From Lachnospiraceae bacterium MD335 (GTDB lineage Bacteria; Bacillota; Clostridia; Lachnospirales; Lachnospiraceae): a stretch of 64,000 nt of DNA. Each line of letters starts with the position of its first letter. The stretch's first letter is position 1. Positions 19,672-54,200 of this stretch are shown here, piece by piece. The stretch is from contig KE159617.1 in NCBI GenBank assembly GCA_000403335.2, positions 1,014,917-1,078,916 of the forward strand, read 5' to 3'. The notes under the pieces were generated by a model. The model was given only the letters and a program-made list of their open reading frames with translations. It ran no database searches and was not told the DNA's origin. The translations under genes and the position numbers were made by a program.

Positions 19672-19713
19672 AAGGCGCCTAAAATTCGAAGGAGGATTTT
19701 GGCGCCTTATTTA
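19672..19713 (+). terminator. Terminator of the spoVAA-AB-AC operon
   Basis: Stem AAGGCGCC / GGCGCCTT plus an inner AAAAT / ATTTT (13 bp with one bulge), then TATTTAT. It starts 4 nt after the spoVAC stop. Confidence 0.88.
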
Positions 19714-19802
19714 TGCACAGCCCCATGTATAGGAAATATGCCGCTAAGGCGGCGCATGGGGCGCGCGGCGAGTAGCGGAGAAGGTCGTTCCTCTACTCGA
19801 TT
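19712..19802 (+). repeat. Structured intergenic repeat, copy 1
   Basis: First of four related elements (others near 25672, 49003 and 54096). Outer stem CCCCATG / CATGGGG (19721-19727, 19755-19761) encloses the conserved AGGAAATATG and an inner hairpin GCCGC-TAAG-GCGGC. A second hairpin opens with GCGCGGCGAGTAG and closes with CTACTCG (19793-19799). It lies between convergent spoVAC and pectate lyase genes. Confidence 0.85.
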
Positions 19803-19817
19803 GATAACAAAAGATTA

Positions 19818-22385
19818 TTATTTGATGCTGATATTTGAGAACTTCGCAGTGCTCAAGTTGTCAATATCGTTTGCAACCTTGTTTCCGTCCACTGCAAATC
19901 CGATCAGAACTTCTTCTCCCATCGGGATTTCAGCAGAGCCGATAAGCTTCCAAGACTCGTTTGTGTTGTTTCTTGCATAGCCTGTAAATACGTTGCCTTT
20001 GCGCTCAAGCTTGAGCCAAACGCCGTTTGTGACAGACTTTCCGTTCTTTGCGGTTCTGAAGTAGAAGTCTTCTACAAGAGGAATGCCCGCTTTTGCAGCG
20101 CTGTCCTTAGCGTCGATGGTTTCCGTAATCGCACTCATTTCGCCTGCTTTGTTGACTTTAAGCGCCTCACCCTTGTCGCTTGTAACAGCGGTTGCGCCTC
20201 TGTTTGCAAGCAGAACTGCCCATGTCGTGTCATCCAAATCAGGATTGCCTTCATTAAGCTTTGTATTCTGCTTTACGAGAGACATAGAAAGGAATGCAGC
20301 GTTTGCGTTTGCAGCAGTGCTTTCTCTAATCATAAGACCGGTACCTGCATGGTTGTCGATTGCAGTCACGTCGTCGAGCTTTGCAACGATTGTGCCGTCG
20401 CCCTTTAAGCCCTTAAATACATAGTGGAAGCTGTCTGTCGTTGCATCAGCGGGTACGCCGTCAACCGAACCTTCCGCTTTGCCTACTTTTCCGGCGCCCT
20501 TTACGGTAAGAACGCCCTTTTCCAGTGAGCTTGAGCCTGCAACGCCCGGAGCGCCGATGTCGATGCTTTCATAGCCTGCAGTTCCGGCAGTGCTGTTTAC
20601 ATGAATTTGTGCGGCTGTTGCCTGTGTTGCAGTGCCGTTATTGTCATATGCTCTTGCCGAAATAAAGTATGTTCCGTCTGCAAGGCTGCTCATATCACAT
20701 AAGTAAGGAGCCTGTGTTGCCGTAGACACAAGGGTACTGCCGTTGTAGAATTCCACCTTGTCGATGGTTCCGCCATTGTTTGCCGATGCAACGGCACCGA
20801 TCACGATGCTGTCGCCTTTGTTGTACTGTGCATTGTTTTCAACGGTCAGCATAACGGTCGGGTTGTCCGCAGCTTTATTTGCGTCTACGATGCTGTTAAA
20901 ATAGTTTTCTACATTAGAACGTCCGTTTGCAGCAATTGCTTTGGCATCGGCTGCATTGTTCTTGTCAAATCCGAGCATATCCTCGTAGAAGTCCGGCATA
21001 CCGTCCATGTCGGTGTCGTAGCCTGCTTCTCTTACTGCCGTAGTACATGGGTAACCGCCGACTTCATCTTCTGTGTTGATGAAACGACCTGTGTCTGTTC
21101 TTACTTCCTGTACGACACGTGCATCCTGTGCATCGCGTTTCGGATAAGTAGCGCCTGCCTGATCCAATACTTTGGAGAAGCTTGCCTCTGCGGTTTCCAT
21201 ATCCTTTTCTAACGGGAAGTCACACGCTTTTTTCTGCATAAAGGAGGTGCCGCCGATGGTTGAAGTGTACTGTTCTTTTGCAATCACGGTCCAGTCGGGA
21301 GCCGTGTTGATTACGCCTGTTTTCTTACCGTCGCCTGCGTTATCTTCAGAAAGCTCTTTATTCTTTACTGCGCCGTCATAGAGTGAATTTCCGTTTACAT
21401 AAAATCCGCCGTACTTCTTGTTCTCTCCGGGTTTTGCAATTGCCTCGGAAATATCGTCTCGTGTGCCGACACCGTTGATGATATAGTTATTCATATAGTT
21501 GGTGAGCTGCCATCCGCCGCCGTGTACAACGTTGAAACCGTAGTTGTAGATAACGTTGTTGCTTACCTGTGTGGTAGCGCAGTAGCCGTATGCGTCTCCT
21601 GCCGTCTCCTTTGTCGGGTCGCCCATAGAGCCGCCGCCCATACGAGGAGGACGTGAGGTTGTATTTGCCATTAAGTTGTACTGGAAGAGTACGTTGTCAC
21701 CGCCAAAAATTCCGCCGTAACCGTGACGCCCCTTTGTGTGTCCCGATACGGTAAGGCTTTCATAAATCAGACAGTGCTGTACTGTTCCGTCCTGTCCGCG
21801 GTATGTAGAGAGCGTCTCATCCGTGTTCCAGCTAAATGAGCAGTGGTCGAGAATAAAGAGCTTGTTGTCGCGCCCCCAAAGTGCGTCCATTGAGTCGCTG
21901 CCGTTTGCAACGTTCTTTGCGCCGGGACGGAACCGCATATAGCGGATAATCAGGTTTTCGGAATTGCTGATGTCGGTCTGATAGCCGGAGAGCGTAACGC
22001 CGTCGCCCGGAGCTGTCTGACCGGCAATTGTTACATTTTTAATGTCTTTAAAGGAAAGATTGCCTTTTAAATCAATGAGACCGCCGACATTGAATACGAT
22101 AATTGCACCTCCGTTATCTTTTGCGAACTTCTCGATGCCGTAACGGAGCGTACCTTCAATCGGCTTGTCCTCCTTTGCATAGTCTGCAAGGGAAGTAACG
22201 ACATAGGTGTCGTAGCCTCGTCCGCCTGTTGCGTACTGTCCGCCGCCCTCAGCAGTGTCAAATGCGCGCACTTTCTCTGCCGCATTTGTTTTCATCGACA
22301 TACCCGGACATGTCATGCTGGTAAATACCATTGCACCTGCAAGCGCAAGCGCAACAGGCTTTTTGATGTTTTTCCATGCTGCCAT
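19818..22385 (-). CDS. Secreted polysaccharide lyase family 1 (pectate lyase) with C-terminal modules
   Basis: 855 residues. A signal peptide (about 1-36, ending TNAAE) is followed by a right-handed beta-helix pectate lyase domain (about 40-420). That domain has VTIAGQTAPGDGVTLSG, IIRYMRFRPGAKN, the Ca/active-site region SMDALWGRDNKLFILDHCSFSW and RPPRMGGG. A calcium-loop-like DTDMDGMPDFYEDMLGF lies near 455. An Ig-like module (about 505-590) and a jelly-roll-like C-terminal domain (about 600-855) follow. No sortase, SLH or dockerin signal, so it is probably released. Cleaves polygalacturonate by beta-elimination. A promoter lies at 22462-22490, with AAAGGAG before the start. Confidence 0.9.
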   Translation of the reverse strand: MAAWKNIKKPVALALAGAMVFTSMTCPGMSMKTNAAEKVRAFDTAEGGGQYATGGRGYDTYVVTSLADYAKEDKPIEGTLRYGIEKFAKDNGGAIIVFNVGGLIDLKGNLSFKDIKNVTIAGQTAPGDGVTLSGYQTDISNSENLIIRYMRFRPGAKNVANGSDSMDALWGRDNKLFILDHCSFSWNTDETLSTYRGQDGTVQHCLIYESLTVSGHTKGRHGYGGIFGGDNVLFQYNLMANTTSRPPRMGGGSMGDPTKETAGDAYGYCATTQVSNNVIYNYGFNVVHGGGWQLTNYMNNYIINGVGTRDDISEAIAKPGENKKYGGFYVNGNSLYDGAVKNKELSEDNAGDGKKTGVINTAPDWTVIAKEQYTSTIGGTSFMQKKACDFPLEKDMETAEASFSKVLDQAGATYPKRDAQDARVVQEVRTDTGRFINTEDEVGGYPCTTAVREAGYDTDMDGMPDFYEDMLGFDKNNAADAKAIAANGRSNVENYFNSIVDANKAADNPTVMLTVENNAQYNKGDSIVIGAVASANNGGTIDKVEFYNGSTLVSTATQAPYLCDMSSLADGTYFISARAYDNNGTATQATAAQIHVNSTAGTAGYESIDIGAPGVAGSSSLEKGVLTVKGAGKVGKAEGSVDGVPADATTDSFHYVFKGLKGDGTIVAKLDDVTAIDNHAGTGLMIRESTAANANAAFLSMSLVKQNTKLNEGNPDLDDTTWAVLLANRGATAVTSDKGEALKVNKAGEMSAITETIDAKDSAAKAGIPLVEDFYFRTAKNGKSVTNGVWLKLERKGNVFTGYARNNTNESWKLIGSAEIPMGEEVLIGFAVDGNKVANDIDNLSTAKFSNISIK

Positions 22386-22461
22386 TTTAAAAAATCTCCT
22401 TTCGTTTGTGAAAATAAAATTAGGTTTGGAAAATTAGTTATTTTGTATATTTTTTATATTG

Positions 22462-22490
22462 ATTGTAGCATTATTTTGACACAATGTATA
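22462..22490 (-). promoter_or_regulatory. Promoter of the pectate lyase gene
   Basis: On the minus strand TATACA (22490-22485), 17 nt, TACAAT (22467-22462), about 77 nt before the start codon. Own transcription, separate from the GH13 gene upstream. Confidence 0.6.
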
Positions 22491-22532
22491 GTCCCAAAAC
22501 AATAATTTTTTACCAAATCTTGGGGTTTGGCT

Positions 22533-24206
22533 CTAATGAAAGCTTTTTACCCAGTTTATCAGCGAGTCATGGTGAATGTTGTTCAGGACGTCGTTTCGCA
22601 TCTGCTGCGTGACGTTTCCTTTCTTTTCCATAATGGCAAGGATTGCCTCCTGAAGACCTGCAATCTTTCCTTTTTGGAATGCGTCGCTGTCAGACAGTTG
22701 CGAAGCTTCCGCGGGTTCAATGGAAACAGTTTCGCATGCCGCGCTGTCTTCTGATACGCTTGCGGCATAAACCGGAGCGGACGGCGTTTGGGCAGCATCG
22801 GCAATTGCGGTCAGTACCGGTTTTTCGTCAGGCTCTTTTGCAGACGGAGCGCCGTCGGTTACGGGAAGCCAAATGTCACCGGAATTTGCCTTGACGTTGA
22901 CACAGATATTGCCGTTGACAACAGACACACGCTGACCGGAAAGCGCGCCCATGTATTCGGCATAACCGCCGGTTACGGGGAGCGTCATCGTGTAGTCGCT
23001 TTCGTCATTGTTTACGGTGACGACTGCGCACTCATTGTCAAACGTGCGGGAAAACGCATACTGACGGTTCATCAGCAAAAGCTCCTTATAGTTGCCGTAG
23101 CAGAGCGCTTTGGAATGCTGCCGCGTTTTTCCGAGTGCGGCGGTAAGTTTTGTGTACGCATTGTTTTCGAGTGCGTCCTTATAGTCTTCATAGGACAGTG
23201 CGGGACGCAGTGATGCGTCGGAGAATTTTTCCTTTCGTCCCTCAATGCCAAATTCCGAGCCGTAATAAACGGAAGGGATGCCGGGGAGGGTATAGAGCAG
23301 GACATGAACCGGCGTGTAGTGCGCTTTGTTGGCAAGCTTTGTGTAAATGCGCTCAACATCGTGATTGTCCACAAAGTTATAGAGCCGGAACCCGTTTGGA
23401 TTGCTTCCGCCCATTTCATAGAGACGTTTGACTGTGTGTGCAATTTCAAAATAGTTGTGGTCGTTGTGGCCGGAGTAGAGCGCCTTATGAAGCTGGTAGT
23501 TTGTCACGGAATGGAGTGTGCCCTCGTTTACCCAGCGCGAATAGTCGCCGTGAATGACCTCGCCCATCAGCCAAAAATCAGGCTTTACTTCGTTTGCGAC
23601 ACCGCGCAGCGCTTTCATAAAGTCGAAATCCAGCACGTCTGCGGCATCGAGACGAATACCGTCCACGTCAAATTCGCTTACCCAAAAACGAATGACATCA
23701 CAGATATAATCCTTTACCGCAGGATTTCTTTGGTTTAATTTTACCAGGAGATTGTAGCCGCCCCAGTTGTCGTAGGAAAAGCCGTCGTTGTATTCGTTGT
23801 TGCCGCCGAAGTTTACGTTGCAGTACCAGTCGCGGTACTGTGAGCCTTCGCGTTTTTCTTTAATATCCTGAAACGCAAAAAAGTCGCGGCCCGTGTGGTT
23901 AAATACACCGTCGAAGATTACCCTGATGCCTGCCTCGTGGCATTTTGCCACATAATTTTTTAAATCTTCGTTGTCGCCAAGTCTGCTGTCAAGCTTTTTG
24001 TAGTCGGTCGTTTCATAGCCATGTCCTACGGATTCAAACAGCGGACCGATATATATGGCATTGCAGCCGATGTCTTTAATATGTTGTATCCACGGTATCA
24101 GACTGTTAATCCGGTGTACAGGATCCCCGTAAGCGTTTTCCTTTGGGGCGTCAGCCATGCCAAGCGGATAGATGTGATAAAATACTGCTTCGTCGTACCA
24201 AGCCAT
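22533..24206 (-). CDS. GH13 alpha-amylase family enzyme with unusual C-terminal tail
   Basis: 557 residues without signal peptide, so cytosolic. GH13 regions are clear: VIFDGVFNHTG, the nucleophile in DGIRLDAADVLD, the acid/base in LMGEVIHGDYS and NFVDNHDVER. A beta domain ends near 455 (VNGNICVNVKANSGDIWLP). It probably acts on imported maltodextrin or cyclodextrin. An Ala/Pro/Ser/Glu-rich linker (about 458-508) is followed by a helical tail (KGKIAGLQEAILAIMEKKG...LINWVKSF). That tail resembles the C-terminus of Rpn/PD-(D/E)XK-like proteins more than any GH13 module. AAGGAGGAA precedes the start. Confidence 0.9.
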   Translation of the reverse strand: MAWYDEAVFYHIYPLGMADAPKENAYGDPVHRINSLIPWIQHIKDIGCNAIYIGPLFESVGHGYETTDYKKLDSRLGDNEDLKNYVAKCHEAGIRVIFDGVFNHTGRDFFAFQDIKEKREGSQYRDWYCNVNFGGNNEYNDGFSYDNWGGYNLLVKLNQRNPAVKDYICDVIRFWVSEFDVDGIRLDAADVLDFDFMKALRGVANEVKPDFWLMGEVIHGDYSRWVNEGTLHSVTNYQLHKALYSGHNDHNYFEIAHTVKRLYEMGGSNPNGFRLYNFVDNHDVERIYTKLANKAHYTPVHVLLYTLPGIPSVYYGSEFGIEGRKEKFSDASLRPALSYEDYKDALENNAYTKLTAALGKTRQHSKALCYGNYKELLLMNRQYAFSRTFDNECAVVTVNNDESDYTMTLPVTGGYAEYMGALSGQRVSVVNGNICVNVKANSGDIWLPVTDGAPSAKEPDEKPVLTAIADAAQTPSAPVYAASVSEDSAACETVSIEPAEASQLSDSDAFQKGKIAGLQEAILAIMEKKGNVTQQMRNDVLNNIHHDSLINWVKSFH

Positions 24207-24231
24207 TTTCAGTTCCTCCTTATATTAAAAA

Positions 24232-24244
24232 AATGATAATCATT
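24232..24244. promoter_or_regulatory. Fur-box-like palindrome upstream of the GH13 gene
   Basis: AATGAT-A-ATCATT is a perfect 6-1-6 palindrome and matches the core of the Fur consensus (TGATAATCAT). It lies 25 bp upstream of the GH13 start. Only the core matches, so regulation by a Fur-family protein is a weak inference. Confidence 0.35.
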
Positions 24245-24301
24245 TCAGCACTTTTAACAGATACTGATTTTTTTTATTAATATATTTTAACACAAAATCA
24301 A

Positions 24302-24330
24302 ATGACATGCATCAAAAAGTGTGCTATTAT
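24302..24330 (+). promoter_or_regulatory. Promoter of the diguanylate cyclase gene
   Basis: ATGACA, 17 nt and TATTAT (each one base from consensus), 38 nt before ATG 24369. Confidence 0.6.
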
Positions 24331-24368
24331 AAAAAAGAATAATTTTTGAAATATAAGAAGGCGGTTTA

Positions 24369-25424
24369 ATGGATTACTTTTTTAATCAGAAAATAGCCAA
24401 AAACATGGCGTTTCTGCTGAATACGATTTTTTTGTGCATGCACATATTCTTCTTTCTTTTTTTCAGCTACTATCATGTTGGAATTATGGCAAATTTTAAT
24501 ATATTCAGCATGATTTTTTATTTTTGCAGCTACGCGTTTATTAAAAAAAATATGCTGGCGCTGTACATCAATCTGATGGCGTTTGAAGTAATTGTCCACA
24601 TGATTTTTGCCGTTGTCTGTGTCGGGACAGGATATGGTTTTCAGATGTGTCTGATTTGTATTGTCAGTATCTTTTTCTATGCGGAGTATTTTTCGCTGAA
24701 AATGAACAGCGGCAAGAGCAATGTGAGCGGCAGTCTGCTGAGTGCGCTGAGCTTTACAAGTTATATCGGATTGCTGTTTGGAATGTATGGAAGAGAGCCG
24801 CTTTATGTGATTAATGAAAAGGTGCAGCTTTTTATGTGTGCGGCGATGTCGGTGATTACGTTTGCGGTTCTGATTGCCTCTTTAAAGCTTATGACGCTGT
24901 TTTTCCTGAAAAGCGAGGCAAGGCTTTCAAAGCAGGCGGAGTACGATGCGCTGACGGGACTGCCGAACCGCCATTATATTATGCGGCATCTCAACCGGAT
25001 TTTGGAGAAGGGCGAGGCGGACGGTTACTGGCTTGCGATGGTGGATATTGATAATTTTAAGGGCATTAATGATACATACGGACATAATTTCGGCGACAAG
25101 GCGCTCAAAGCGCTTGCGTGCATTCTTTCGGACGAGAAGCATGACGTGACGGTGTGCCGCTGGGGCGGGGAGGAATTTTTAATCGTCGGGCGGCTTATTG
25201 AGGCGTCAAGACCGCCGTTTGATAAGATTGACAGCATCCGAAAGCAGGTCGAGGAATATGAACTGATGTACGAAAACGGAGAGGTGAATAAGAGGGTGCC
25301 GCTTACCATTACAATTGGAGCGGCGGCGTACTCCAAAGAAGCAACGATAGAGGAATGGGTGAGCATTGCCGACAAACGGCTTTATGTGGGGAAATATAAC
25401 GGTAAAAACAGAGTGGTCTGTTAG
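24369..25424 (+). CDS. Membrane diguanylate cyclase (GGDEF domain)
   Basis: 351 residues. Six hydrophobic helices (about 12-180) form a membrane sensor of unknown input. The C-terminal GGDEF domain (about 188-351) has the active-site variant GGEEF at 266-270 (RWGGEEF), DALTGLPNRHY and the metal-binding DIDNFKGINDTYGHNFGD, so it should make cyclic di-GMP. No inhibitory-site RxxD appears upstream of GGEEF, suggesting no product inhibition. No EAL domain or GEMM riboswitch is seen nearby. AAGGCGG precedes the ATG. Confidence 0.93.
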   Translation: MDYFFNQKIAKNMAFLLNTIFLCMHIFFFLFFSYYHVGIMANFNIFSMIFYFCSYAFIKKNMLALYINLMAFEVIVHMIFAVVCVGTGYGFQMCLICIVSIFFYAEYFSLKMNSGKSNVSGSLLSALSFTSYIGLLFGMYGREPLYVINEKVQLFMCAAMSVITFAVLIASLKLMTLFFLKSEARLSKQAEYDALTGLPNRHYIMRHLNRILEKGEADGYWLAMVDIDNFKGINDTYGHNFGDKALKALACILSDEKHDVTVCRWGGEEFLIVGRLIEASRPPFDKIDSIRKQVEEYELMYENGEVNKRVPLTITIGAAAYSKEATIEEWVSIADKRLYVGKYNGKNRVVC

Positions 25425-25498
25425 TTGGGAATTTGATGACAGGGGCTGAGTATGCGTTTCAGAATAGCTGAAAACTGTAGCTGCGGCCACAAAAGCAG

Positions 25499-25528
25499 TT
25501 GACAAACAGCCGCGCACTCCGTTATAAT
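25499..25528 (+). promoter_or_regulatory. Consensus promoter of the ABC-F leader transcript
   Basis: TTGACA, 18 nt and TATAAT: both hexamers perfect. The predicted start near 25535 would give a leader of about 395 nt before the ABC-F start codon, far longer than needed for translation alone. Confidence 0.8.
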
Positions 25529-25601
25529 AAGCACAGTCGGTTTAGCTATTGCAAAACTGTCAGTCAATAAAACAAAGATAAAAAACGAGAGAGGTGAAAA
25601 G

Positions 25602-25613
25602 ATGCGGAAATAA
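25602..25613 (+). CDS. Three-codon leader ORF (MRK)
   Basis: ATG CGG AAA TAA with the strong Shine-Dalgarno GAGAGAGGTG 5-6 nt upstream, far better than random. Too short to be a functional protein, so translation itself is probably the signal. A basic residue right after Met recalls drug-stalled leader peptides such as the MRL and +X+ types. Confidence 0.55.
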   Translation: MRK

Positions 25614-25671
25614 CCGATTTTGGAAAACATGGATTTTTTAGACAGTAAGGTGTTTTAGTGCACTGCTGTTT

Positions 25672-25775
25672 TGTGCGCACGGGCGTCCAAATGAAATATG
25701 TCATCAAACCGGTAAACCGGTTTGGTGACGGACGCTTGGCGCGCGGATAGGGAAGGAATCTTCCCTATCCGGTTC
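25672..25775 (+). repeat. Structured intergenic repeat, copy 4
   Basis: Outer stem GCGTCC / GGACGC (25683-25688, 25730-25735) holds AAATATG, GTCA / TGAC and an 8-bp hairpin CAAACCGG-TAAA-CCGGTTTG. A 12-bp perfect hairpin CGGATAGGGAAG / CTTCCCTATCCG (25744-25771) follows. Same plan as the copies near 19712, 49003 and 54096, but the stem sequences differ with pairing kept. This copy sits inside the ABC-F leader. Confidence 0.85.
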
Positions 25776-25929
25776 CTTGTTGCCAAAAGTGGGTTATGTT
25801 CTGCACGACCTCTCTTTTTGTGTGGAAAAATCGTTACTGTTTTTGTTGCTTTGGCAGTAATGCATAATCTTCTTTTTGTACAGTGCAAACAGGGAAAACA
25901 GCAGTGTGGAAAAAGGAGGCGTTTCGCGT

Positions 25930-27471: not shown

Positions 27472-27513
27472 AATAAAAAATATTCACGTAAAGGAAACTT
27501 TTTTTGTGCCCGT

Positions 27514-29325: not shown

Positions 29326-29338
29326 TAAAAGAGTAAGC

Positions 29339-37351: not shown

Positions 37352-37503
37352 TACTGCGGTGCGTTTGCGCACCGCAGTATGCCTAAGAGAGCATTGATGA
37401 AATCAATACTCCGTTAGGCGTGCAGAATGCACACGAATTTACAAAGGAAGTTGCTGCTTCGCAGCGTAAATTCGGCGCGGAAAACGCTTTAATCAGCGTT
37501 TCC
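37352..37503 (+). other. Five consecutive hairpins between binding protein and permease
   Basis: A: 12-bp perfect stem around TACTGCGGTGCG (37352-37379). B: GCCTAA / TTAGGC (37381-37419) with inner ATTGAT-GAA-ATCAAT. C: GTGC-AGAAT-GCAC (37420-37432). D: GAATTTAC / GTAAATTC (37435-37473) with inner GCTGC-TTC-GCAGC. E: GGAAAACGCT / AGCGTTTCC (37479-37503). No U-run follows any of them, so they look like RNA stabilising or processing structure rather than a simple terminator. Confidence 0.8.
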
Positions 37504-39333: not shown

Positions 39334-39335
39334 GA

Positions 39336-46250: not shown

Positions 46251-46338
46251 GGTGAAAAAGATTATCACAAGGCTTTGGCATTGAAAATGATATTAGGTGT
46301 AATAAGAAATTTTGCAACAAGAAAATTTACATTATTAG

Positions 46339-46367
46339 TTGCATCTGCCAAATTAGTGTGATATACT
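46339..46367 (+). promoter_or_regulatory. Promoter of rpsO
   Basis: TTGCAT, 17 nt, TATACT. Transcription would start near 46374, leaving a leader of about 118 nt before rpsO. Confidence 0.7.
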
Positions 46368-46373
46368 TTTTAA

Positions 46374-46491
46374 GTGTGTTGTAAAAACCACACGGACAAA
46401 AGCAAAATCAGCCGATGCTCAGCAAAGGGAGGCTCCAACCCGCGCTTGGTTTTTGGCGGTTGCGTAAGAAAGATTAATGGAGGAATGAAGA
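46374..46491 (+). promoter_or_regulatory. rpsO leader, possible S15 autoregulatory RNA
   Basis: GC-rich, foldable leader with GTGTG / CCACAC near its start and a G/C-rich segment (GGGAGGCTCC, CGCGCTTGG, GGCGG) before the GGAGG. S15 represses its own mRNA through leader structures in many bacteria; this leader is a candidate by position. I could not match it to a named motif. Confidence 0.45.
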
Positions 46492-46758
46492 ATGATTTCA
46501 AAGGAAAAGAAAACAGCAATTATTAACGAGTATGCGAGAACACCCGGCGATACCGGTTCACCGGAGGTTCAGATTGCCGTATTGACGGCAAGAATACAGG
46601 AGCTTACAGAGCATTTGAAGGTAAATCAGAAGGATCACCACTCAAGAAGAGGTCTTTTGAAAATGGTAGGTCAGAGACGTGGTTTACTCGGATATTTAAA
46701 GAAAACCGACATTGAAAGGTATCGTGCTCTGATTGAAAAGCTTGGTCTCAGAAAATAA
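46492..46758 (+). CDS. rpsO: 30S ribosomal protein S15
   Basis: 88 residues, full length, with conserved [47 protein letters not shown] and [15 protein letters not shown]. Binds 16S rRNA in the 30S platform. GGAGG precedes the ATG. It is followed by an attenuator-like hairpin and pnp, the standard rpsO-pnp order. Confidence 0.98.
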
Positions 46759-46772
46759 TAGGAGATTTTGGA

Positions 46773-46799
46773 GGGGTGGGTATATATCCGCCCCTTTTT
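46773..46799 (+). terminator. Hairpin with T-run between rpsO and pnp
   Basis: GGGGTGG / CCGCCCC (one G-U) with TTTTT. It probably reduces transcription into pnp or acts as an RNase processing site. Confidence 0.75.
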
Positions 46800-46828
46800 A
46801 ACCATAAGTTCAAAGAAGGAGATATGCG

Positions 46829-48955
46829 ATGGAATACATGACATTCAGTGAAAAGAAAGACAAGTCCTACAAGGCATACAGTATGGAACTTGCGGGGCGT
46901 ACGCTTACCGTGGACATCGGCAGGGTGGCGGCACAGGCAAACGGTGCGGCATTGATGCATTACGGTGATACGACGGTGCTTTGTACGGCAACGGCTTCGG
47001 ACAAGCCAAGGGACGGGATTGATTTCTTCCCGCTTTCCGTTGAGTATGAGGAGAAGCTTTATTCGGTGGGCAAGATTCCGGGAGGCTTTAACAAGAGAGA
47101 GGGAAAGGCGAGTGAGAATGCGGTTTTGACAAGCCGTGTGATCGACAGACCGATGCGTCCGCTGTTCCCGAAGGATTACAGAAATGACGTGACATTAAAC
47201 AATATGGTTATGAGCGTAGATCCGCAGTGCCGTCCGGAGCTGGTGGCAATGATTGGTTCGGCGATCGTGACTTCAATTTCGGATATTCCGTTTGACGGAC
47301 CGTGCGCGACGACGCAGATGGGTCTTGTAGACGGTGAGTTTGTTGTAAATCCCAATCAGGAGCAGTGGAAAAACGGCGATATGCAGCTTACGGTTGCCTC
47401 GACAAGCCAAAAAGTGATTATGATTGAGGCGGGGGCAAATGAGGTTCCCGAGGACAAAATGATTGAGGCAATTTATAAGTGCCATGAAATCAATCAGACT
47501 ATCATTGCATTTATCAATCAGATTGTGGCAGAGGTCGGTAAGGCAAAGCATGAATATACAAGCTGTGCAATTCCTGAGGAGATGTTTGCAAGGATTAAAG
47601 AAATCGTTCCTCCCGAGGAGATGGAAGGTGCGGTGTTTACGGACGAGAAGCAGGTAAGGGAAGAGAACATAAAAAAGATTACCGAGCGTCTTGAGGAAGC
47701 GTTTGCCGACAACGAGGAGTGGCTTGCAATCCTTGGCGAGGCAATTTACCAGTATCAGAAGAAGACTGTCAGAAAAATGATTTTGAAGGATCAGAAGCGT
47801 CCTGACGGCAGAAAGGTTACGCAGATCCGTCCGCTTGCGGCTGAAACGGATATTATTCCGAGAGTACATGGTTCCGCAATGTTTACGCGCGGACAGACAC
47901 AGATTTGTACGGTTACGACGCTTGCGCCGTTGTCAGAGGTTCAGAGAATTGACGGACTGGACGAGAACGAGACGAATAAGCGTTATATGCATCACTATAA
48001 TTTCCCGTCTTATTCTGTCGGTGAAACAAAGCCTTCAAGAGGACCGGGACGCCGCGAGATCGGACATGGAGCGCTTGCGGAGAAAGCGCTTGTGCCGGTA
48101 CTTCCTTCGGAGGAGGATTTCCCGTATGCAATCCGTACGGTTTCGGAGACATTTGAGTCAAACGGATCGACATCACAGGGGTCTATCTGTGCGTCAACCA
48201 TGTCCCTGATGGCAGCAGGCGTGCCGATTACGAAGCCGGTAGCAGGTATCTCATGCGGTCTTGTGACGGGGGATACGGATGATGATTATATTGTATTGAC
48301 GGATATTCAGGGTCTTGAGGACTTCTTTGGCGATATGGACTTTAAGGTGGCAGGTACGAAGGACGGTATCACGGCAATTCAGATGGATATTAAAATTCAC
48401 GGTCTGACAAGACCGATTGTCGAGGAAGCGATTGCCAAGACAAAGGATGCGAGAATGTATATCTTAAACGAGATTATGATACCGTGCATCGCTCAGCCAA
48501 GACCGATGGTTGGCGAGTATGCGCCGAAGATTATTCAGACAAAGATTGATCCGGAGAAGATTGGCGATGTGGTTGGTCAAAGAGGTAAGACCATTAACGC
48601 GATTATTGATCAGACAGGCGTTAAGATTGATATTTCGGATGACGGCTTTGTGAGCATCTGCGGTACGGACCAGGCGATGATGGATAAGGCTTGTGAAATG
48701 ATTAACATTATCACGACAGACTTTGAGGAAGGTCAGATCTTTAAGGGCAAGGTTGTGAGCATCAAGGAATTCGGCGCGTTTATCGAGTTTGCACCCGGTA
48801 AGGAGGGCATGGTTCATATTTCCAAGATTGCGAAGGAGCGCATTAACCATATTGAGGATGTTTTGACACTTGGCGATACGGTTACGGTGGTATGCCTTGG
48901 CAAGGACAGAATGGGAAGAATCAGTTTTTCCATGAAGGATGTGGCACAAAACTAA
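46829..48955 (+). CDS. pnp: Polyribonucleotide nucleotidyltransferase (PNPase)
   Basis: 708 residues, full length. Two RNase PH domains (about 15-215 and 315-545), joined by an all-helical linker. A KH domain follows (about 555-615, KIGDVVGQRGKTINAIIDQTGVKIDI), then an S1 domain (about 625-700, EGQIFKGKVVSIKEFGAFIEFAPGKEGMVHISKI). Degrades RNA 3' to 5' with phosphate. AAGAAGGAG precedes ATG 46829. Ends at a strong terminator. Confidence 0.98.
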   Translation: MEYMTFSEKKDKSYKAYSMELAGRTLTVDIGRVAAQANGAALMHYGDTTVLCTATASDKPRDGIDFFPLSVEYEEKLYSVGKIPGGFNKREGKASENAVLTSRVIDRPMRPLFPKDYRNDVTLNNMVMSVDPQCRPELVAMIGSAIVTSISDIPFDGPCATTQMGLVDGEFVVNPNQEQWKNGDMQLTVASTSQKVIMIEAGANEVPEDKMIEAIYKCHEINQTIIAFINQIVAEVGKAKHEYTSCAIPEEMFARIKEIVPPEEMEGAVFTDEKQVREENIKKITERLEEAFADNEEWLAILGEAIYQYQKKTVRKMILKDQKRPDGRKVTQIRPLAAETDIIPRVHGSAMFTRGQTQICTVTTLAPLSEVQRIDGLDENETNKRYMHHYNFPSYSVGETKPSRGPGRREIGHGALAEKALVPVLPSEEDFPYAIRTVSETFESNGSTSQGSICASTMSLMAAGVPITKPVAGISCGLVTGDTDDDYIVLTDIQGLEDFFGDMDFKVAGTKDGITAIQMDIKIHGLTRPIVEEAIAKTKDARMYILNEIMIPCIAQPRPMVGEYAPKIIQTKIDPEKIGDVVGQRGKTINAIIDQTGVKIDISDDGFVSICGTDQAMMDKACEMINIITTDFEEGQIFKGKVVSIKEFGAFIEFAPGKEGMVHISKIAKERINHIEDVLTLGDTVTVVCLGKDRMGRISFSMKDVAQN

Positions 48956-48973
48956 ATAACGTTTGTATTTTAG

Positions 48974-49003
48974 GACAGTCTGTTTTCAGGCTGTCTTTTT
49001 TTT
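48974..49003 (+). terminator. Terminator of pnp
   Basis: Stem GACAGTCTG / CAGGCTGTC with TTTT loop and eight T residues. Confidence 0.95.
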
Positions 49004-49093
49004 ATGCGCAGACCCGTGCAGAGGAAGTATGCCGCTAAGGCGGCGCACGGGTCGCGCGGCGAGTAGGGGAAGATGGTTCTTCCCTACTCGATT
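49003..49093 (+). repeat. Structured intergenic repeat, copy 2
   Basis: Outer stem ACCCGTG / CACGGGT (49012-49018, 49046-49052), conserved AGGAAGTATG, inner GCCGC-TAAG-GCGGC. The second hairpin CGAGTAGGGGAAG / CTTCCCTACTCG (49060-49090) follows. Compared with copy 1, the outer stem differs (CCGTG for CCATG) with the partner base changed to match. It starts right at the end of the pnp terminator T-run. Confidence 0.88.
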
Positions 49094-49125
49094 GTACTCT
49101 GTTCGTTTTGTACCGTATCTTTTTG

Positions 49126-49153
49126 TAATATTTCCCGTATGCGGACATATATT
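49126..49153 (+). promoter_or_regulatory. Predicted sigma-E (mother cell) promoter of spoIIIA
   Basis: TAATATT fits the sigma-E -35 consensus KMATATT. After 13 nt, CATATATT matches 6 of 8 positions of the -10 CATACAMT. It lies 27 nt before spoIIIAA, which is sigma-E controlled in Bacillus subtilis. Confidence 0.65.
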
Positions 49154-49179
49154 GAGATAAGGACAAAGGTGGTGAGGAC

Positions 49180-50106
49180 GTGGAATTGGCAAAATTTTTT
49201 CCCGAGCGGCTGCGACAGAGTTGGACAACGCTTGGATTAGATGTAAATGCGGTGCGGGAAATCAGAATACGGGTAAATCAAAAGGTCAGGGTGATTACGG
49301 AGCGGGAAATCGTACTGCCTTTTGTGTATGGAGAGCGGGAGTTAGAGGACATTTTCCGCTACCTGTGCCACGATTCGGTGTATGCATATGACGAGGAGCG
49401 AAGACAGGGGTTTCTAGCCGTGGAGGGCGGACACCGCGTGGGAATTACGGGGGAAATTACGCGGGTTGACGGCGGGTATCTTGCAAAGTATATCCGCTAT
49501 ATCAATATTCGCATTGCGCACGAGAAGAAGGGAATTGCAAAGGCGGCAGCGCCGTATCTGCACGGTGTGTGCGGCAGGGGAGCTCCGTGCAGCACATTGA
49601 TTATATCGCCGCCAGGGATTGGAAAGACAACGCTTCTTCGGGATCTTATCCGCATTGTGTCGGATGGGGAGTATGGCTTTTGCGGATGTAATGTCGGTGT
49701 GATAGACGAGCGGGGAGAGCTTGCCGGAGCGTACCGGGGCGGTGCGACACTAGACTGCGGTGCGCGTACGGATGTGGTTACAGGCGGTGACAAGGGACAT
49801 GGTATCGGTGTATTGGTGCGGACGTTTTCGCCGCGCGTGATTGCAATTGACGAGATTGGGAAGGAGAGCGATGCGCAGGCAATTTTACATGCCGGAGTGA
49901 GCGGCTGTGCCGTGTTTGCGACCGCTCACGGAAGTTCTTTGGAGGATGTCTGCAAAAACAGGGAATTGGACGGTCTGATAAGGCTTAAGATTTTTGAGCG
50001 GATTTTGGTACTTTCGGCAGATGAAAAGGGTTTGCGGTATTTTGAGATTGTTGATCAGGAAGGAGTGAAGATATGTGGCAGAAGCTTGTTGCAGGAACCT
50101 GCGTGA
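49180..50106 (+). CDS. spoIIIAA: Stage III sporulation protein AA (ATPase)
   Basis: 308 residues starting at GTG 49180 (AAAGGTGG upstream). Secretion-ATPase-like: Walker A SPPGIGKTTLLRD (about 143-155), VIDERGELAG and IAIDEIGKESDA. It probably powers the SpoIIIA-SpoIIQ channel from the mother-cell side. First gene of a complete spoIIIA operon. Its 3' end overlaps spoIIIAB by 34 nt. Confidence 0.95.
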   Translation: MELAKFFPERLRQSWTTLGLDVNAVREIRIRVNQKVRVITEREIVLPFVYGERELEDIFRYLCHDSVYAYDEERRQGFLAVEGGHRVGITGEITRVDGGYLAKYIRYINIRIAHEKKGIAKAAAPYLHGVCGRGAPCSTLIISPPGIGKTTLLRDLIRIVSDGEYGFCGCNVGVIDERGELAGAYRGGATLDCGARTDVVTGGDKGHGIGVLVRTFSPRVIAIDEIGKESDAQAILHAGVSGCAVFATAHGSSLEDVCKNRELDGLIRLKIFERILVLSADEKGLRYFEIVDQEGVKICGRSLLQEPA

Positions 50107-50591
50107 TGACAGGAGCGGTGGGATTTGGACTTGCATTATGCGCAGAGCTTGGAAGTGAGATTGCACACTTAAAAAAGCTAAAGGAGCTGCTGCTTTACAT
50201 AATCGGTGAGATTACCTATCTGCACAGACCGGCGGCGGAGATTTTGAGTATGGCGGCACAGCGTATGGGCGCGCCGTATGCAGTGTTTTTGGAACAGACC
50301 GCGCAGCAGCTTGAGGCGCGCGACGGATTAACGCTTCCTGAGATTTGGAATGCCAATATCGGTTTGATGCGGGAAGCGGAAATACCAAAAGAGGCGCTGC
50401 GGTATTTGGAGCGTATGGGTACGTGTTTTGGCTGTGAGGGGGACAAGATGCAGATTGAGTATTTTAGTCTCTTTGAACGCGAGTTGGATGAGAGAATATC
50501 TGTTCTGAGTGCAAAGCAAAGTGAGAACAGCAGATTAATCAGTGCACTGAGTGCACTTACCGGGGTGCTGTGTATTGTTCTGTTCTTGTGA
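50073..50591 (+). CDS. spoIIIAB: Stage III sporulation protein AB
   Basis: 172 residues. An N-terminal membrane helix (about 5-25) precedes the helical domain with LKELLLYIIGEITYLHRPAAEIL, similar to type II secretion GspF-like proteins. A C-terminal hydrophobic helix is present (LISALSALTGVLCIVLFL). Member of the mother-cell channel complex. AGGAAGGAG lies 8 nt before the ATG, within spoIIIAA. Confidence 0.92.
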   Translation: MWQKLVAGTCVMTGAVGFGLALCAELGSEIAHLKKLKELLLYIIGEITYLHRPAAEILSMAAQRMGAPYAVFLEQTAQQLEARDGLTLPEIWNANIGLMREAEIPKEALRYLERMGTCFGCEGDKMQIEYFSLFERELDERISVLSAKQSENSRLISALSALTGVLCIVLFL

Positions 50592-50618
50592 TTTTATGTG
50601 TGGGATTGGAGAGAGAGG

Positions 50619-50813
50619 ATGGAAGTAAGTCTGATTTTTAAGATTGCTGCGGTAGGTATCTTAATCACGATTTTAGGACAAGTGCTCAAGCACAGCGGAC
50701 GGGAGGAGCATGCCTTTCTGATTAGTCTTGCAGGGCTTGTGCTGGTGCTTTCCTGGATTGTGCCGTATATCTATGAGCTTTTTAATATGATACAGGATTT
50801 GTTCGGTTTGTGA
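50619..50813 (+). CDS. spoIIIAC: Stage III sporulation protein AC
   Basis: 64 residues from ATG 50619 (GGAGAG upstream; an in-frame GTG at 50598 is less likely). Two membrane helices (VSLIFKIAAVGILITILGQVLKHSG and HAFLISLAGLVLVLSWIVPYI), as in SpoIIIAC, which is about this length. Confidence 0.93.
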   Translation: MEVSLIFKIAAVGILITILGQVLKHSGREEHAFLISLAGLVLVLSWIVPYIYELFNMIQDLFGL

Positions 50814-50839
50814 GGAATGAAAACAGGAGGTTATAAAGT

Positions 50840-51220
50840 ATGCTGCAAATCTGCGTGCTTGCAATCACGGGGTTGTTTGCCGCCCTTGTTATCAAAAAAG
50901 ACAAGCCGGAGTATGCGTCGTTTATTATTATGCTGGTGGGATTTTTCATCGCAATCCGTGTGCTGCTGGTGTTGGAAGGCGTTGTGGAGGAGCTGGAGGG
51001 TTTTCGGACGCTGATTAGCCAAAATGCTACCTATGTGCGTCTGCTGTTAAAGCTTGTGGGCATTACGTATGTGTGCGATTTCGCTGCAAGTCTGAGCAAG
51101 GACGCGGGACATTCGGCGCTTGCAAACCACATTGAGCTGTTCGGAAAAATGGCAATTATGGTAGCGGGACTTCCCGTAATCAAAATGATGATAGAAATGC
51201 TTGAGGAAATAATGCGATGA
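50840..51220 (+). CDS. spoIIIAD: Stage III sporulation protein AD
   Basis: 126 residues with four hydrophobic segments and family motifs AALVIKKDKPEYA and LLKLVGITYVCDFAASLSKDAGHSALANHIELFGK. It is an expanded paralog of SpoIIIAC. AGGAGGT precedes the ATG. The stop overlaps spoIIIAE by ATGA. Confidence 0.94.
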   Translation: MLQICVLAITGLFAALVIKKDKPEYASFIIMLVGFFIAIRVLLVLEGVVEELEGFRTLISQNATYVRLLLKLVGITYVCDFAASLSKDAGHSALANHIELFGKMAIMVAGLPVIKMMIEMLEEIMR

Positions 51221-52284
51221 GTGAAGAATTAAATTTATGGCAGGACATTCTTCCGGATCTTGGGATGGTTGACCGTCTTCTAAGGGAGCTGCTTCCGCAA
51301 AAAAACGTGAGTTCGATGGATTTCATGGAAGATGTGCTGAAGGGAAACTGGGTATTGGAGCCCGATTTGTTTTGGCAGTATTTGAAGGAAGCGGTGCTTG
51401 GGGTTATGGCGGACTGGAAAAGCCTGTTTGTGTCTGTTCTTGTGCTGTTTATTGCAGCGGCGGTGGTGAACGGATTTATGCAGGCGTTTAAAAATGACGG
51501 CGCGGCACATGCCGCAAGGACTTTTTTTATACTGTGTGAATTGATTGTGTTGGTCAATGCGTTTCGGGATGTGCTTGCGATTGTGAGCGAGGCGATGGAG
51601 CGTATGCTGGAATTTCTGAAAATTATGCTGCCTGCATACATGATTTGTATTGCGGCGGCAGGTTCAGGGCTTACGGCATTGATTTTTTATAAGCTGCTGC
51701 TAGGCTTTCTGTGTCTGATAGAAGGGATTATTGCAGCGTCGCTTGTACCGATTGTGGAGGGGTATGTCATGTTGGGCGTTGTGGAAAGCATATGGGGCGA
51801 AGGACGGTTTCAGGCAATTATGGACATTATGAAGAAAGTCGTGCAGTGGGTTATGAAGGGAATGATTGTATTGCTGTCGGGCAGCAGTATTCTTCAGATA
51901 ATAATAACACCCGTAATGGATAAAGCAAATGCCGCAGTAATCCAAAAAACGGCAGGCGCCATTCCGGGAATAGGGGATCTTGTGGAGTCGGTATCAAGCG
52001 TGACGCTTGCTTCCGCCATTGCGGTTAAGAACAGCCTGGGTGTGCTGATCCTTGTTGTGCTGATTTTGCTGATTGCAGCGCCAGTGATTCAGGCATTTAT
52101 GATTATTGCGGTAATTAAGGTCAGCGGTGCGCTTGGAAGCATCTGTGGAGAGAAGCAGATGGTAAAGTGTGTTTCTTATATTTCTGAGGCAGGCATGCTG
52201 CTGCTGCGCCTTTTAATAACAGTAGCAACGCTTTTTTTTGTCACGATTGCGGCGGTCACAAATGCCACAAGCGCTGCGTTGTAA
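51217..52284 (+). CDS. spoIIIAE: Stage III sporulation protein AE
   Basis: 355 residues, a multi-pass membrane protein with a soluble N-terminus (1-60) and about seven helices. It has the typical KTAGAIPGIGDLVESVSSVTLASAIAVKNSLG near 245-275. Part of the SpoIIIA-SpoIIQ channel. Coupled to spoIIIAD by a 4-nt overlap. Confidence 0.95.
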   Translation: MSEELNLWQDILPDLGMVDRLLRELLPQKNVSSMDFMEDVLKGNWVLEPDLFWQYLKEAVLGVMADWKSLFVSVLVLFIAAAVVNGFMQAFKNDGAAHAARTFFILCELIVLVNAFRDVLAIVSEAMERMLEFLKIMLPAYMICIAAAGSGLTALIFYKLLLGFLCLIEGIIAASLVPIVEGYVMLGVVESIWGEGRFQAIMDIMKKVVQWVMKGMIVLLSGSSILQIIITPVMDKANAAVIQKTAGAIPGIGDLVESVSSVTLASAIAVKNSLGVLILVVLILLIAAPVIQAFMIIAVIKVSGALGSICGEKQMVKCVSYISEAGMLLLRLLITVATLFFVTIAAVTNATSAAL

Positions 52285-52298
52285 AGGAGGAAGACGAA

Positions 52299-52673
52299 AT
52301 GGAACAGCTGACAGTTGAAATAAGAAAGCTTGTGTATACGGTCATATGCTTCCAGTGTCTTTTGCAGCTTACGGCAGGGAGCGTATATCAGCGTTATTTA
52401 AAGCTTTTTTCCTATTTCCTGACCATGTGCATGTGCTGTGGGGTAATTTATTCTTTTGTCGGGCAGCTTGAGGCGAGTGTAATGTCCGCGCAAAGGGTGT
52501 ACGATTCGTTTGAACGCGAATGGGGCGCATTGACGGATGCGGAGCGGATTAGGGAGAGCAGCTCTTATTATACGGACCGGATTTGGAACGGGAAAATCGT
52601 CGAAGATGCGTATGAGCAGTATAAAATAGAAGAGGAAGGAGCAGGAGCAGATGCCGCATTGGATGAAGAATAA
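52299..52673 (+). CDS. spoIIIAF: Stage III sporulation protein AF
   Basis: 124 residues, shorter and more divergent than Bacillus SpoIIIAF. Two N-terminal membrane helices (about 8-30 and 35-55) are followed by a charged soluble part. Assigned by order and topology rather than strong motifs. AAAGGAGG precedes the ATG. The 3' end overlaps spoIIIAG by 23 nt. Confidence 0.82.
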   Translation: MEQLTVEIRKLVYTVICFQCLLQLTAGSVYQRYLKLFSYFLTMCMCCGVIYSFVGQLEASVMSAQRVYDSFEREWGALTDAERIRESSSYYTDRIWNGKIVEDAYEQYKIEEEGAGADAALDEE

Positions 52674-53211
52674 ACTGTTTAACGGGCAAAGACCAAATAA
52701 GGAAACCATGCTGATTTTATTTTTAAGCGGAATTTTGATATTTGTGATTTTGCTGCCTGTGGATAAAAGCGGAAGTAAAAATAACGGTAGTTATAAAAAT
52801 CAGAATGAGGTTTTGGCGCCACAGACGAGCAGTACAGGAAGTCCGCGCATTGCGGAAGAGATGAGTTTGCAGGAGTACAAGGAAACGCTTGAGCACGAGC
52901 TGGAAGACTTTTTGTCGGGGATGTCGGGTGTTGGCGAAGTGAAAGCGCTTATTTATATGAAGACGTCGTGGGAGTATCAGGTGGAGAAGGACGGGGACAG
53001 CAGGGCGCAGGCACAAAATGAGGAGACTGTGTATACGACAAACGAATATGGTCAGGAGGTGCCGTTTGTAAAACGTTATGTCTGTCCGCAGATTAACGGT
53101 GTAGCGCTTCGGGTATCAGGTGCGGTTAACGAGGAGGCGCGGGTGCGGCTTGTTCATCTTGTTATGGCGCTTTACGGGCTTGAAGCGAACAAGGTGGAGG
53201 TAATCAATTAA
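52651..53211 (+). CDS. spoIIIAG: Stage III sporulation protein AG
   Basis: 186 residues with one membrane helix (about 20-38) and a ring-forming EscJ/PrgK-like domain containing YKETLEHELEDFLSGMSGVGEVKALIYMKTSWEYQVEKD and INGVALRVSGAVNEEARVRLVHLVMALYGLEANKVEVI. Forms rings in the intermembrane space. ATG 52651 follows AGGAAGGAG; an in-frame ATG at 52663 is an alternative. Confidence 0.94.
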   Translation: MPHWMKNKLFNGQRPNKETMLILFLSGILIFVILLPVDKSGSKNNGSYKNQNEVLAPQTSSTGSPRIAEEMSLQEYKETLEHELEDFLSGMSGVGEVKALIYMKTSWEYQVEKDGDSRAQAQNEETVYTTNEYGQEVPFVKRYVCPQINGVALRVSGAVNEEARVRLVHLVMALYGLEANKVEVIN

Positions 53212-53286
53212 AAAAAAGAAGTATAATAGGGCATGCTGTTGAATACTATATAAATAGCAAAGAGAAACAAGGAAGGATATGGTTTG

Positions 53287-54090
53287 GTGAAAAAAATATT
53301 AAGAAAAAACCAGATTATGATTACGGCGCTGGCGGTAATGATAGCGGTTGCAGGGTACTTAAACTTTGCAGGCACGCGGATTGGCGAGGAGGATTTTATC
53401 TCCGTGGACGGCAGCGGCAGCGAGCTTACATATGAGATTTCAGACGAGGATATGTATGCCATATCACTCAGGGAAGATACGGACGGAACGATTTCCGATT
53501 ATTCGGAATATGCGCAGATAACAGGTACGGACGGCGATATTTTAAGCTTAGACAGCGATGACGCCGGTATCACGGAAAATTATCTAAGCAGCGGTATGGA
53601 AGGAAACGATACCACCCTTGCGGCGGCAGAAAGTACCGACGGACACGGCGTGTTGGCGTCTAATGCGGATGCTGCGGAGGCAAATGTAATTGAACAGGAA
53701 ATTCCCGGAGAAGCAGTGTTTACAAGTGCGTCAGGCGTTTCTACCCTTGCGGGCGCAAAGCTTTTAAAGGAGCAGACCAGAGCGCAGAACAAGGAAACAC
53801 TGCTGGAGATTATCAACAATGATACACTTACGGAGGATGCAAAGCAGGATGCAATCAACAGCATGATCGTCCTCACGGAAACCGCGCAGAAGGAATCTGA
53901 TGCACAGCTTCTTTTGGAGGCGAAGGGCTACACGCAGACAGTCGTAAGCATCAGCGGCGACGTTGCGGACGTGATGGTTGAAGCGCCGAGCCTTACGGAC
54001 GCACAGACGGCACAGATTATAGACATTGTGCAGAGGAAGACCTCAATTGCGCCGGAAAATATTATTATCACGGTATCCGGTGCGGAATAA
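53287..54090 (+). CDS. spoIIIAH: Stage III sporulation protein AH
   Basis: 267 residues from GTG 53287 (GGAAGGA 9 nt upstream; TTG 53284 is also possible). An N-terminal membrane helix (about 5-24), a long acidic, probably disordered stretch (about 30-140), then a ring domain (about 150-265) with AQNKETLLEIINNDTL and LLLEAKGYTQTVVSISGDVADVMVEA. It pairs with forespore SpoIIQ to form the channel. Last gene of the operon. Confidence 0.93.
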   Translation: MKKILRKNQIMITALAVMIAVAGYLNFAGTRIGEEDFISVDGSGSELTYEISDEDMYAISLREDTDGTISDYSEYAQITGTDGDILSLDSDDAGITENYLSSGMEGNDTTLAAAESTDGHGVLASNADAAEANVIEQEIPGEAVFTSASGVSTLAGAKLLKEQTRAQNKETLLEIINNDTLTEDAKQDAINSMIVLTETAQKESDAQLLLEAKGYTQTVVSISGDVADVMVEAPSLTDAQTAQIIDIVQRKTSIAPENIIITVSGAE

Positions 54091-54095
54091 TAATA

Positions 54096-54200
54096 ATCGA
54101 GTAGGGGAACGGTTTTTTCTACTACTCGCCGCGTCGGGCATCCGTCAGCGAACCGATTTATCGGTTTGATGACATATTTCCTTTGGGTGCCCGTGTGCAT
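54096..54200 (-). repeat. Structured intergenic repeat, copy 3 (reverse orientation)
   Basis: Read on the minus strand it has CGGGCA / TGCCCG as outer stem (54193-54188 and 54140-54135), the conserved AGGAAATATG, GTCA / TGAC and AACCGA-TTTA-TCGGTT inside. The GCGGCGAGTAG...CTACTCG hairpin (54128-54098) follows. It lies between convergent spoIIIAH and chemoreceptor genes. Confidence 0.85.

Follow-up and report, generated by a model that had tools for sequence, protein, structure and literature searches.

Group IIC (bacterial class C) introns are described as inserting at transcription terminators (PMC4424553, PMC8919778). In a IIC structure, a DNA stem is followed by a T-rich intron-binding site 1 (IBS1) that is paired with the AAAG of exon-binding site 1 (EBS1) (PMC10190682). 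In the account cited here, IIC introns without their protein splice largely by hydrolysis, and branching requires the protein (PMC7161350). Group III introns of Euglena chloroplasts are 90-120 nucleotides (nt) long and sometimes consist of domains I and VI only (PMC4424553); they carry U at position 2, and trans-acting machinery is thought necessary for them (PMC4424553, PMC5572947). Short structured repeats of bacteria include the REP sequences with their RAYT partners (PMC2817692, PMC3733652, PMC6006769) and the pneumococcal BOX, RUP and SPRITE repeats, of which SPRITE is terminator-like (PMC3049150). Here we describe a family of intergenic structured elements in a 64,000-nt stretch of Lachnospiraceae bacterium MD335 (contig KE159617.1, positions 1,014,917 to 1,078,916; hereafter the window).

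A first-pass annotation of the window had reported four copies of the element (c1 to c4). That observation is confirmed, and its interpretation is partly supported. The copies belong to a structured, terminator-associated family that is almost certainly mobile. We propose, with a probability of roughly 0.58, that the elements lack autonomy and either derive from group IIC introns or live as their parasites, and we infer both the mobility and the helper from the comparisons below. The likeness of the ends and of the target site to group IIC introns is new here; it is the clue that the first-pass annotation missed. Numbers with G and L are our labels for genomes and loci.

Structure and covariation of the element

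Subtype 1 (c1 and c3) carries GCCGC-TAAG-GCGGC inside and subtype 2 (c2 and c4) GTCA...TGAC. Twelve subtype-1 copies, c1 and c3 among them, were used to build a covariance model, R1; c2 and c4 were left out. Searched against the window with filters off, R1 gave c3, c1, c4 and c2 as its best four matches (E 1e-25 to 3e-10), followed by a fifth copy at 37424-37494. Since c2 and c4 were recovered from outside the training set, the kinship of the two subtypes was tested, and the division into two subtypes held. Sequence, folding and R1 agreed on the positions of the four copies and on their common plan. Two motifs had been placed wrongly: AAGTATG, given to the second copy, is in the third (49003), and GCGCGG, given to all copies, reads ACGCGG in c4, the plan otherwise being as described.

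Each of c1 to c4 folded into an outer stem, an 11-nt unpaired 5' strand, an inner hairpin and a second hairpin, with z-scores against dinucleotide shuffles of -3.5, -8.5, -6.2 and -3.0, respectively. The family plan, in order, is (A/G)TGCRCA, outer stem P1, bulge, inner hairpin P2, a GCG-rich linker, second hairpin P3 and GATT. P1 has the base GCRC/GCGC, extended by 9-10 variable pairs, and the 11-nt purine-rich 5' bulge is commonly ARAGGAARTAT. Conservation runs from ATGCRCA, behind a T-tract, through CTACTCGATT, and the element is about 90-110 nt long.

Covariation was assessed in two alignments, A5 (48 distinct rows from the genome of the window) and A6 (107 distinct rows from other genomes); both were fitted to R1, which inflates the pairing. 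Changes on both sides were found in 23 of 26 pairs (A5) and 25 of 26 pairs (A6), and none of 500 shuffles reached the observed covariation, which bears out the compensating stem changes noted earlier. When the partner was shifted by 1-3 columns, paired cells fell from 87-90% to 37-50%. All three stems covary, and many G-C to C-G swaps in P1 can be read directly in the sequences. G-U cells outnumbered A-C cells (93:49 and 119:89), which points to mildly preferred pairing on the strand of the element; an asymmetry this mild does not distinguish RNA from single-stranded DNA.

In some copies the bulge itself contains a further hairpin (L098, L109; by eye), and others have lost parts (L115, L112, L054). 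P3-only, domain-6-like hairpins also occur (L108, L128, L141, L155, L219), some of them close 3' of a gene end. A list of 13 candidate solo P3 matches held several real cases of P3 alone, the others being chance; the solo hairpins are possibly 5'-truncated copies or recruited terminators. No known RNA family accounted for the element: the Rfam 15 scan of the window at gathering scores gave no family match to it, group II included, and c3 and c2 at E<=10 gave chance matches only and none to group II.

Spread across genomes

The genome of the window is a 4.96-Mb draft, 97.8% complete. R1 gave 61 matches in it at E<=10 and 52 at E<=1e-4 (own copies, below); c2 and the 37424 copy escaped this search, which makes the counts lower bounds. 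A subtype-1 pattern with up to three mismatches gave 24 matches in the same genome and its reversed control none. In the genus, 33 of 36 genomes (own included; 71 candidates scored per genome) had R1 matches at E<=0.1 and three had none, with a maximum of at least 69 matches in each of two genomes. At E<=1e-4, 40 of 299 sampled genomes of the family matched (14 candidates scored each). Matches were found in two of 24 genomes from other families of the order (G042, E 2e-18; G050, a weak 0.079) and in three of 391 genomes of the class, all of the same family and the own genome among them (10 candidates scored each). The first-pass annotation had proposed searching for further copies, and many were thus found in the genome and its relatives.

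A separate set was selected from GTDB r220 contigs by a 33-base pattern that included TTT and comprised at least 113 stretches; the 80 titles among the matches listed were mostly those of Lachnospiraceae drafts, with a few reading bacterium, Dorea, Eubacterium, Lachnotalea or Lachnoclostridium. Among plasmids and phages, c3 had no blastn match. The element pattern was present on two IMG/VR viral contigs (L329, L330). A literature search found no paper describing the repeat family.

Long forms occur in distant genera (G313, G076, G341, G351, G325; loci L372-L380, L391-L394) and in the own genome (L039, L106, possibly L107). They have an added 5' hairpin with an A-tract able to pair with the target T-tract, and mostly carry a CTCCG mini-hairpin such as GCCCTCCGGGC. 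Their Rfam matches were chance matches, plus a T-box inside the leader of an upstream gene.

Target site and mobility

The position of the elements behind terminators was assessed by requiring a hairpin that ended no more than 12 nt 5' of the element, in comparison with dinucleotide shuffles. An earlier, more lenient test, passed by about half of the shuffles, was uninformative and had been dropped. The strict hairpin was present in 40 of 52 own copies (shuffles, 0.22) and, among the matches listed, in 105 of 112 pattern-selected copies (shuffles, 0.25), whereas the mirrored downstream flank had one in 3 of 52 own copies. T stood at position -2 in 47 of 52 own copies. The T-rich context of the pattern-selected loci is partly built in, as they were chosen with TTT; the own-genome set was drawn by R1, whose first three positions are TTT too. 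Most elements thus lie directly behind an intrinsic terminator on the same strand, as the first-pass annotation had noted for its copies. The place of c2 inside an ABC-F leader, also noted before, was upheld as well.

Pairs of copies reached identities of 99.1, 98.9 and 97.8%, and their flanks were no more alike than unrelated sequences; copies have thus dispersed recently. Of 30 loci read for pnp and spoIIIAA, between which c3 lies, 10 had the two genes near each other, and the site was filled in two of 10 species: the own genome and G031, whose copy is mostly N-masked with both ends visible. The other eight loci gave no R1 match at E<=1. By eye, the filled site can be aligned with the empty sites of G011 and G035 over the terminator, the T-tract and the bases downstream. 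Head-to-tail tandems occur, the next copy often starting directly behind GATT; a regular expression for tandem starts matched none of 52 own copies, although L091 is a tandem by eye, and matched 27 of 71 elsewhere among the matches listed. No terminal inverted repeats were seen by eye in 60 own-genome matches. A target-site duplication was not evident by eye either; the T-tracts could mask one, and a second T-run lies about 30 nt downstream of c3. The position behind terminators, the presence or absence between species and the near-identical copies in unrelated places put mobility first, which was one of the options originally considered.

Likeness to group IIC introns of the same genus

A search for group II reverse transcriptases (RTs) gave 47 matches in 15 of 25 genomes; 30 of these had loci, and all 30 loci were scanned with Rfam. 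An intron was called IIC by the Rfam class D1-D4-3 and/or a GAACCGCCGT-type domain 5 (with two differences in L291). Seven IIC introns had a readable 3' end (L269, L270, L271, L278, L284, L291, L295): six ended in CTACYYGATT and the other in CTATTCGATT. Group II introns of other types in the same loci ended in CTACYYGATT in none of 12 cases; four ended in CTACTCGAC and one in CTACCCGAC. Of the 52 own copies, 22 carried the exact 3' end of the element, CTACTCGATT, and 45 differed from it by two changes at most; among the 113 pattern-selected matches listed, it was exact in 52, and a preset expression found the right end in 71. In addition, the basal layout GAG..GG/CC..CTC followed by GATT is common to element P3 and intron domain 6 (D6).

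The 5' ends are also alike. A 5' end was visible in five IIC introns (L269, L270, L271, L287, L291), all of which lie behind a hairpin and T-tract (by eye). The introns begin with GTGCGCC (L270, L291) or GTATGACG, and the element with ATGCRCA or, in c2, GTGCGCA. The L271 protein matched the Eubacterium rectale IIC maturase 7uim (E 3e-157 over 420 residues) and the L270 protein the GsI-IIC RT 6ar1 (E 9e-126).

In two of the 30 RT loci the element abuts the 3' end of a IIC intron. The order in L269 is terminator, IIC intron, element and a second, partial element; in L291 (1260-2245) an internally deleted IIC intron lies behind a tRNA gene and terminator, with the element immediately 3'. The own-genome locus L295 reads as a 5'-truncated IIC intron. 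With element copies counted, CTAYYYGATT occurred 12 times per 100 kb in RT loci, 3.4 times in Y1 loci and 2.6 times in spoIIIAA loci; the 12 matches in RT loci were seven intron ends, one element and four elsewhere. As a separate observation, L280 and L297 (G003, G007) adjoin reverse transcriptases and gave an Rfam match to RT-2 RNA above, and one to RT-4 RNA below, the gathering score.

Evidence against a group IIC origin

Several observations weigh against derivation from, or parasitism on, IIC introns. The intron D6 hairpins all fold (7/7) with a single A left unpaired directly above the basal stem, whereas element P3 places T opposite the branch-point position and so has no bulged branch A. 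Of the 52 own copies, 35 have A there and 16 have G, and the base faces T in 43 of the 48 pairable ones. A lariat is therefore unlikely to form from the element itself, its branch A being paired or else replaced by G. The element lacks domain 5, to judge from the absence of any group II Rfam match in the window, c3 or c2, and contains no RT, for which about 93 nt is too short; helper activity must therefore be assumed. At its 5' end, just 2 of the 52 R1-listed own copies start with GT and 50 with A; c2, which begins GTGCG, differs from most of them. Position 2 is T in 51 of the 52 R1-listed copies; position 5 is G in only 14. The strict hairpin test was failed by 12 of 52 own copies, and in the own genome c3 is followed by about 30 extra bases and a second T-run before homology resumes. 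The shared 3' end spans only about 9-10 nt, CTACTCGAC also terminates four other group II introns, and long forms of distant genera end, for example, in CTTTT or CTTAT, which is not domain-6-like.

The distribution of the putative helper is uneven. Intact IIC introns are found in some carrier genomes and not in all: the drafts G011, G014 and G032, with 21, 40 and 69 R1 matches, had no RVT_1 match, and G019 and G035 have an intact IIC intron yet one and four R1 matches. Drafts lose repeats, so the absence of RTs from copy-rich drafts is real and not decisive; the presence or absence of group II RTs was set aside as a weak correlate of the element. Neither a longer version with an open reading frame nor a distant right half was seen among the 113 listed loci; the hairpin criterion used, which 69 of 113 listed loci failed, many with a visible P3, was too strict for a full search. 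One candidate for an autonomous copy with a gene between its halves, L108, has the right hairpin only and lies 3' of a phenylacetate-CoA-ligase-like gene (by reading); it was rejected as not being a transposase unit.

Alternative explanations

Mobilisation as single-stranded DNA by an HUH enzyme of the IS200/IS605 or REP-like kind appears unlikely. A Y1 transposase would recognise the hairpins, with the T-tract as left and GATT as right cleavage site and insertion 3' of the target; the hairpins near both ends, the strict orientation and the tandems with GATT before the next copy would fit. Y1_Tnp matches were present in 13 of 25 and 10 of 14 genomes searched, and RAYT-like genes (NF047646, >58 bits) in six of 15 carriers from other genera (G065, G358, G313, G076, G351, G042) and in one of 14 genomes without an R1 match. 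However, G005, G006, G012, G014, G030 and G034, with 33-54 R1 matches each, had no Y1_Tnp match, and G034 is listed as 100% complete. R1 on 50 Y1 loci gave four matches at E<=1, the best (0.048; L250) ending in a true-looking P3 and the other three looking like chance. IS200/IS605 and RAYT transposases were rejected as the mover, since copy number in the genus does not follow them and nearly all scanned Y1 loci are without a convincing element. The REP-like character suggested in the first-pass annotation was not borne out: 24 same-genus genomes had no NF047646 match above 40 bits, R1 found no element at the four RAYT-like loci examined, out of nine matches above 58 bits, and the plan is not a short head-tagged palindrome. 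Such mobilisation would also leave the domain-6-like 3' end unexplained. RAYT-like Y1 transposases (NF047646) were seen at L407, L408, L415 and L260, in carriers outside the genus, with an R1 match beside none of them.

We also give little credence to a miniature element moved by another, unrecognised transposase, its domain-6-like end being coincidental. In the draft genomes, copy number follows neither the presence of Y1 nor that of RT, and small interspersed repeats without a known mover are on record, such as the CGTC REPs (PMC3733652); yet no terminal inverted repeats were seen by eye, and chance would have to account for the type of target, the orientation and about 10 nt at the very 3' end. 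A cis-acting RNA, back-up terminator or 3'-end stabiliser selected at gene ends, with spread secondary, seems quite improbable. The compensatory changes, the excess of G-U over A-C cells and the location of c2 within a long-range stem of the ABC-F leader speak for it, and a hairpin with ATT could terminate or protect read-through transcripts. On the other hand, transcription behind a terminator should be rare, orthologous sites are mostly empty (2/10 filled), and copies decay and truncate. The roles as 3'-end stabiliser or small RNA raised in the first-pass annotation may be a side effect of a mobile element.

Proposed mechanism and implications

We favour the group IIC explanation. Element RNA would arise by rare read-through of the terminator and be taken up by a group IIC ribonucleoprotein, that is, RT and a catalytic RNA with domain 5. 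Insertion into DNA behind another hairpin and T-tract would follow, and then copying. The T-tract may base-pair with the purine-rich bulge in the way that IBS1 pairs with EBS1.

A stronger version is, in our judgement, an even bet: a bacterial counterpart of the pairs formed by short and long interspersed nuclear elements (SINE/LINE), in which a 93-nt, domain-5-less mini-intron family parasitises the IIC ribonucleoprotein in trans across dozens of Lachnospiraceae genera, with up to tens of copies in a genome. Group II introns are regarded as ancestral to spliceosomal introns and LINE-type retroelements. If the proposal is true, the family would offer an example in living bacteria of the passage from self-splicing intron to dependence on trans-acting machinery and would show the birth of a SINE-like parasite. 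It would also have escaped surveys based on domain 5 or reverse transcriptase, on which bacterial intron surveys are described as resting (PMC4424553). In vitro reconstitution has been achieved for the nearest helper of solved structure, the Eubacterium rectale IIC intron and its maturase (7uim/7uin), so the hypothesis can be put to a direct test. Whatever its origin, this is a large and hitherto unannotated family of repeats that follow terminators in common gut bacteria, and it should be of use in annotation, in typing and in the analysis of transcript 3' ends.

Copies in the window

Table 1. Element copies in the window, their parts and adjoining terminators.
Feature	Position	Strand	Basis
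c1, subtype 1, ATGCACA to CTACTCGATT	19713-19802	+	R1 E 1.1e-25; in R1 training set
Terminator hairpin and T-rich tract immediately 5' of c1, behind spoVAC-like gene	19672-19712	+	by eye
c1 outer stem P1	19720-19728 paired with 19754-19762	+	fold, covariation
c1 11-nt bulge	19729-19739	+	fold, covariation
c1 inner hairpin P2	19740-19753	+	fold, covariation
c1 hairpin P3 and 3' end (domain-6-like)	19769-19802	+	fold
c2, subtype 2, first bases GTGCGCA, inside leader of Lsa-like ABC-F gene	25673-25774	+	R1 E 3.2e-10; outside training set
Hairpin with CTCCG motif 5' of fifth copy, long-form-like	37381-37419	+	by eye
Fifth, weaker copy, absent from the first-pass annotation	37424-37494	+	R1 E 1.7e-5
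pnp terminator hairpin (48972-48997) and T-tract, target of c3	48972-49003	+	related species with sites without the element
c3, subtype 1, between pnp and spoIIIAA-like gene	49004-49093	+	R1 E 9.7e-26; in training set
c3 P3/D6-like hairpin	49060-49090	+	
c4, subtype 2, 3' of methyl-accepting-chemotaxis-like gene	54200-54095	-	R1 E 6.5e-13; outside training set
c4 P3/D6-like hairpin	54128-54098	-	
Terminator hairpin and T-tract immediately 5' of c4	54201-54240	-	by eye

The spoVAC-like gene 5' of c1 had a family match below the curated cut-off. c2 is flanked by GCACTGCTGTTTT and AAAACAGCAGTGT, which pair with each other in the fold of the Lsa-like ABC-F leader (window 25661-25908); in that predicted fold, the insertion of c2 may alter attenuation of the gene. 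Elsewhere in the window, positions 1-1610 hold the end of a 23S rRNA gene and then eight tRNA genes (Rfam).

Comparison with known systems

The element differs from the miniature inverted-repeat transposable elements (MITEs) in that terminal inverted repeats were not seen. With REP/RAYT and the pneumococcal BOX, RUP and SPRITE repeats it shares the character of a short structured interspersed repeat; in contrast to them, no RAYT partner was found for it in the genus, and it has no single head-tagged palindrome and lies mostly right behind a terminator. Euglena group III introns resemble it in size, in the combination of a 5' part with a domain-6-like end and in the U at position 2, whereas the element is bacterial, lies between genes behind terminators and not within genes, has G at position 5 in just 14 of 52 copies and has no bulged branch A. 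Length and the D6-like end fit group III, and P1 and P2 may derive from domain 1. To our knowledge, group III introns have no counterpart outside euglenid plastids, and the literature search revealed none either.

Group IIC introns likewise lie directly behind intrinsic terminators on the same strand, end in CTACTCGATT with a D6-like hairpin and begin with (G/A)TGCGC. Unlike these introns (about 1.9 kb in L269), the element is about 93 nt long, lacks domain 5 and RT, and has its branch-point A paired or replaced by G. Of the features that mark group IIC, it has terminator-adjacent insertion and is without domain 5, RT, a bulged-A domain 6 and the 5' GUGYG. In the SINE/LINE pairs of eukaryotes, a short non-autonomous element shares its 3' end with a resident autonomous retroelement. 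The element shares its 3' end with the resident IIC intron in the same way; it differs from those pairs in that its trans-mobilisation is deduced, and its target would be a terminator hairpin.

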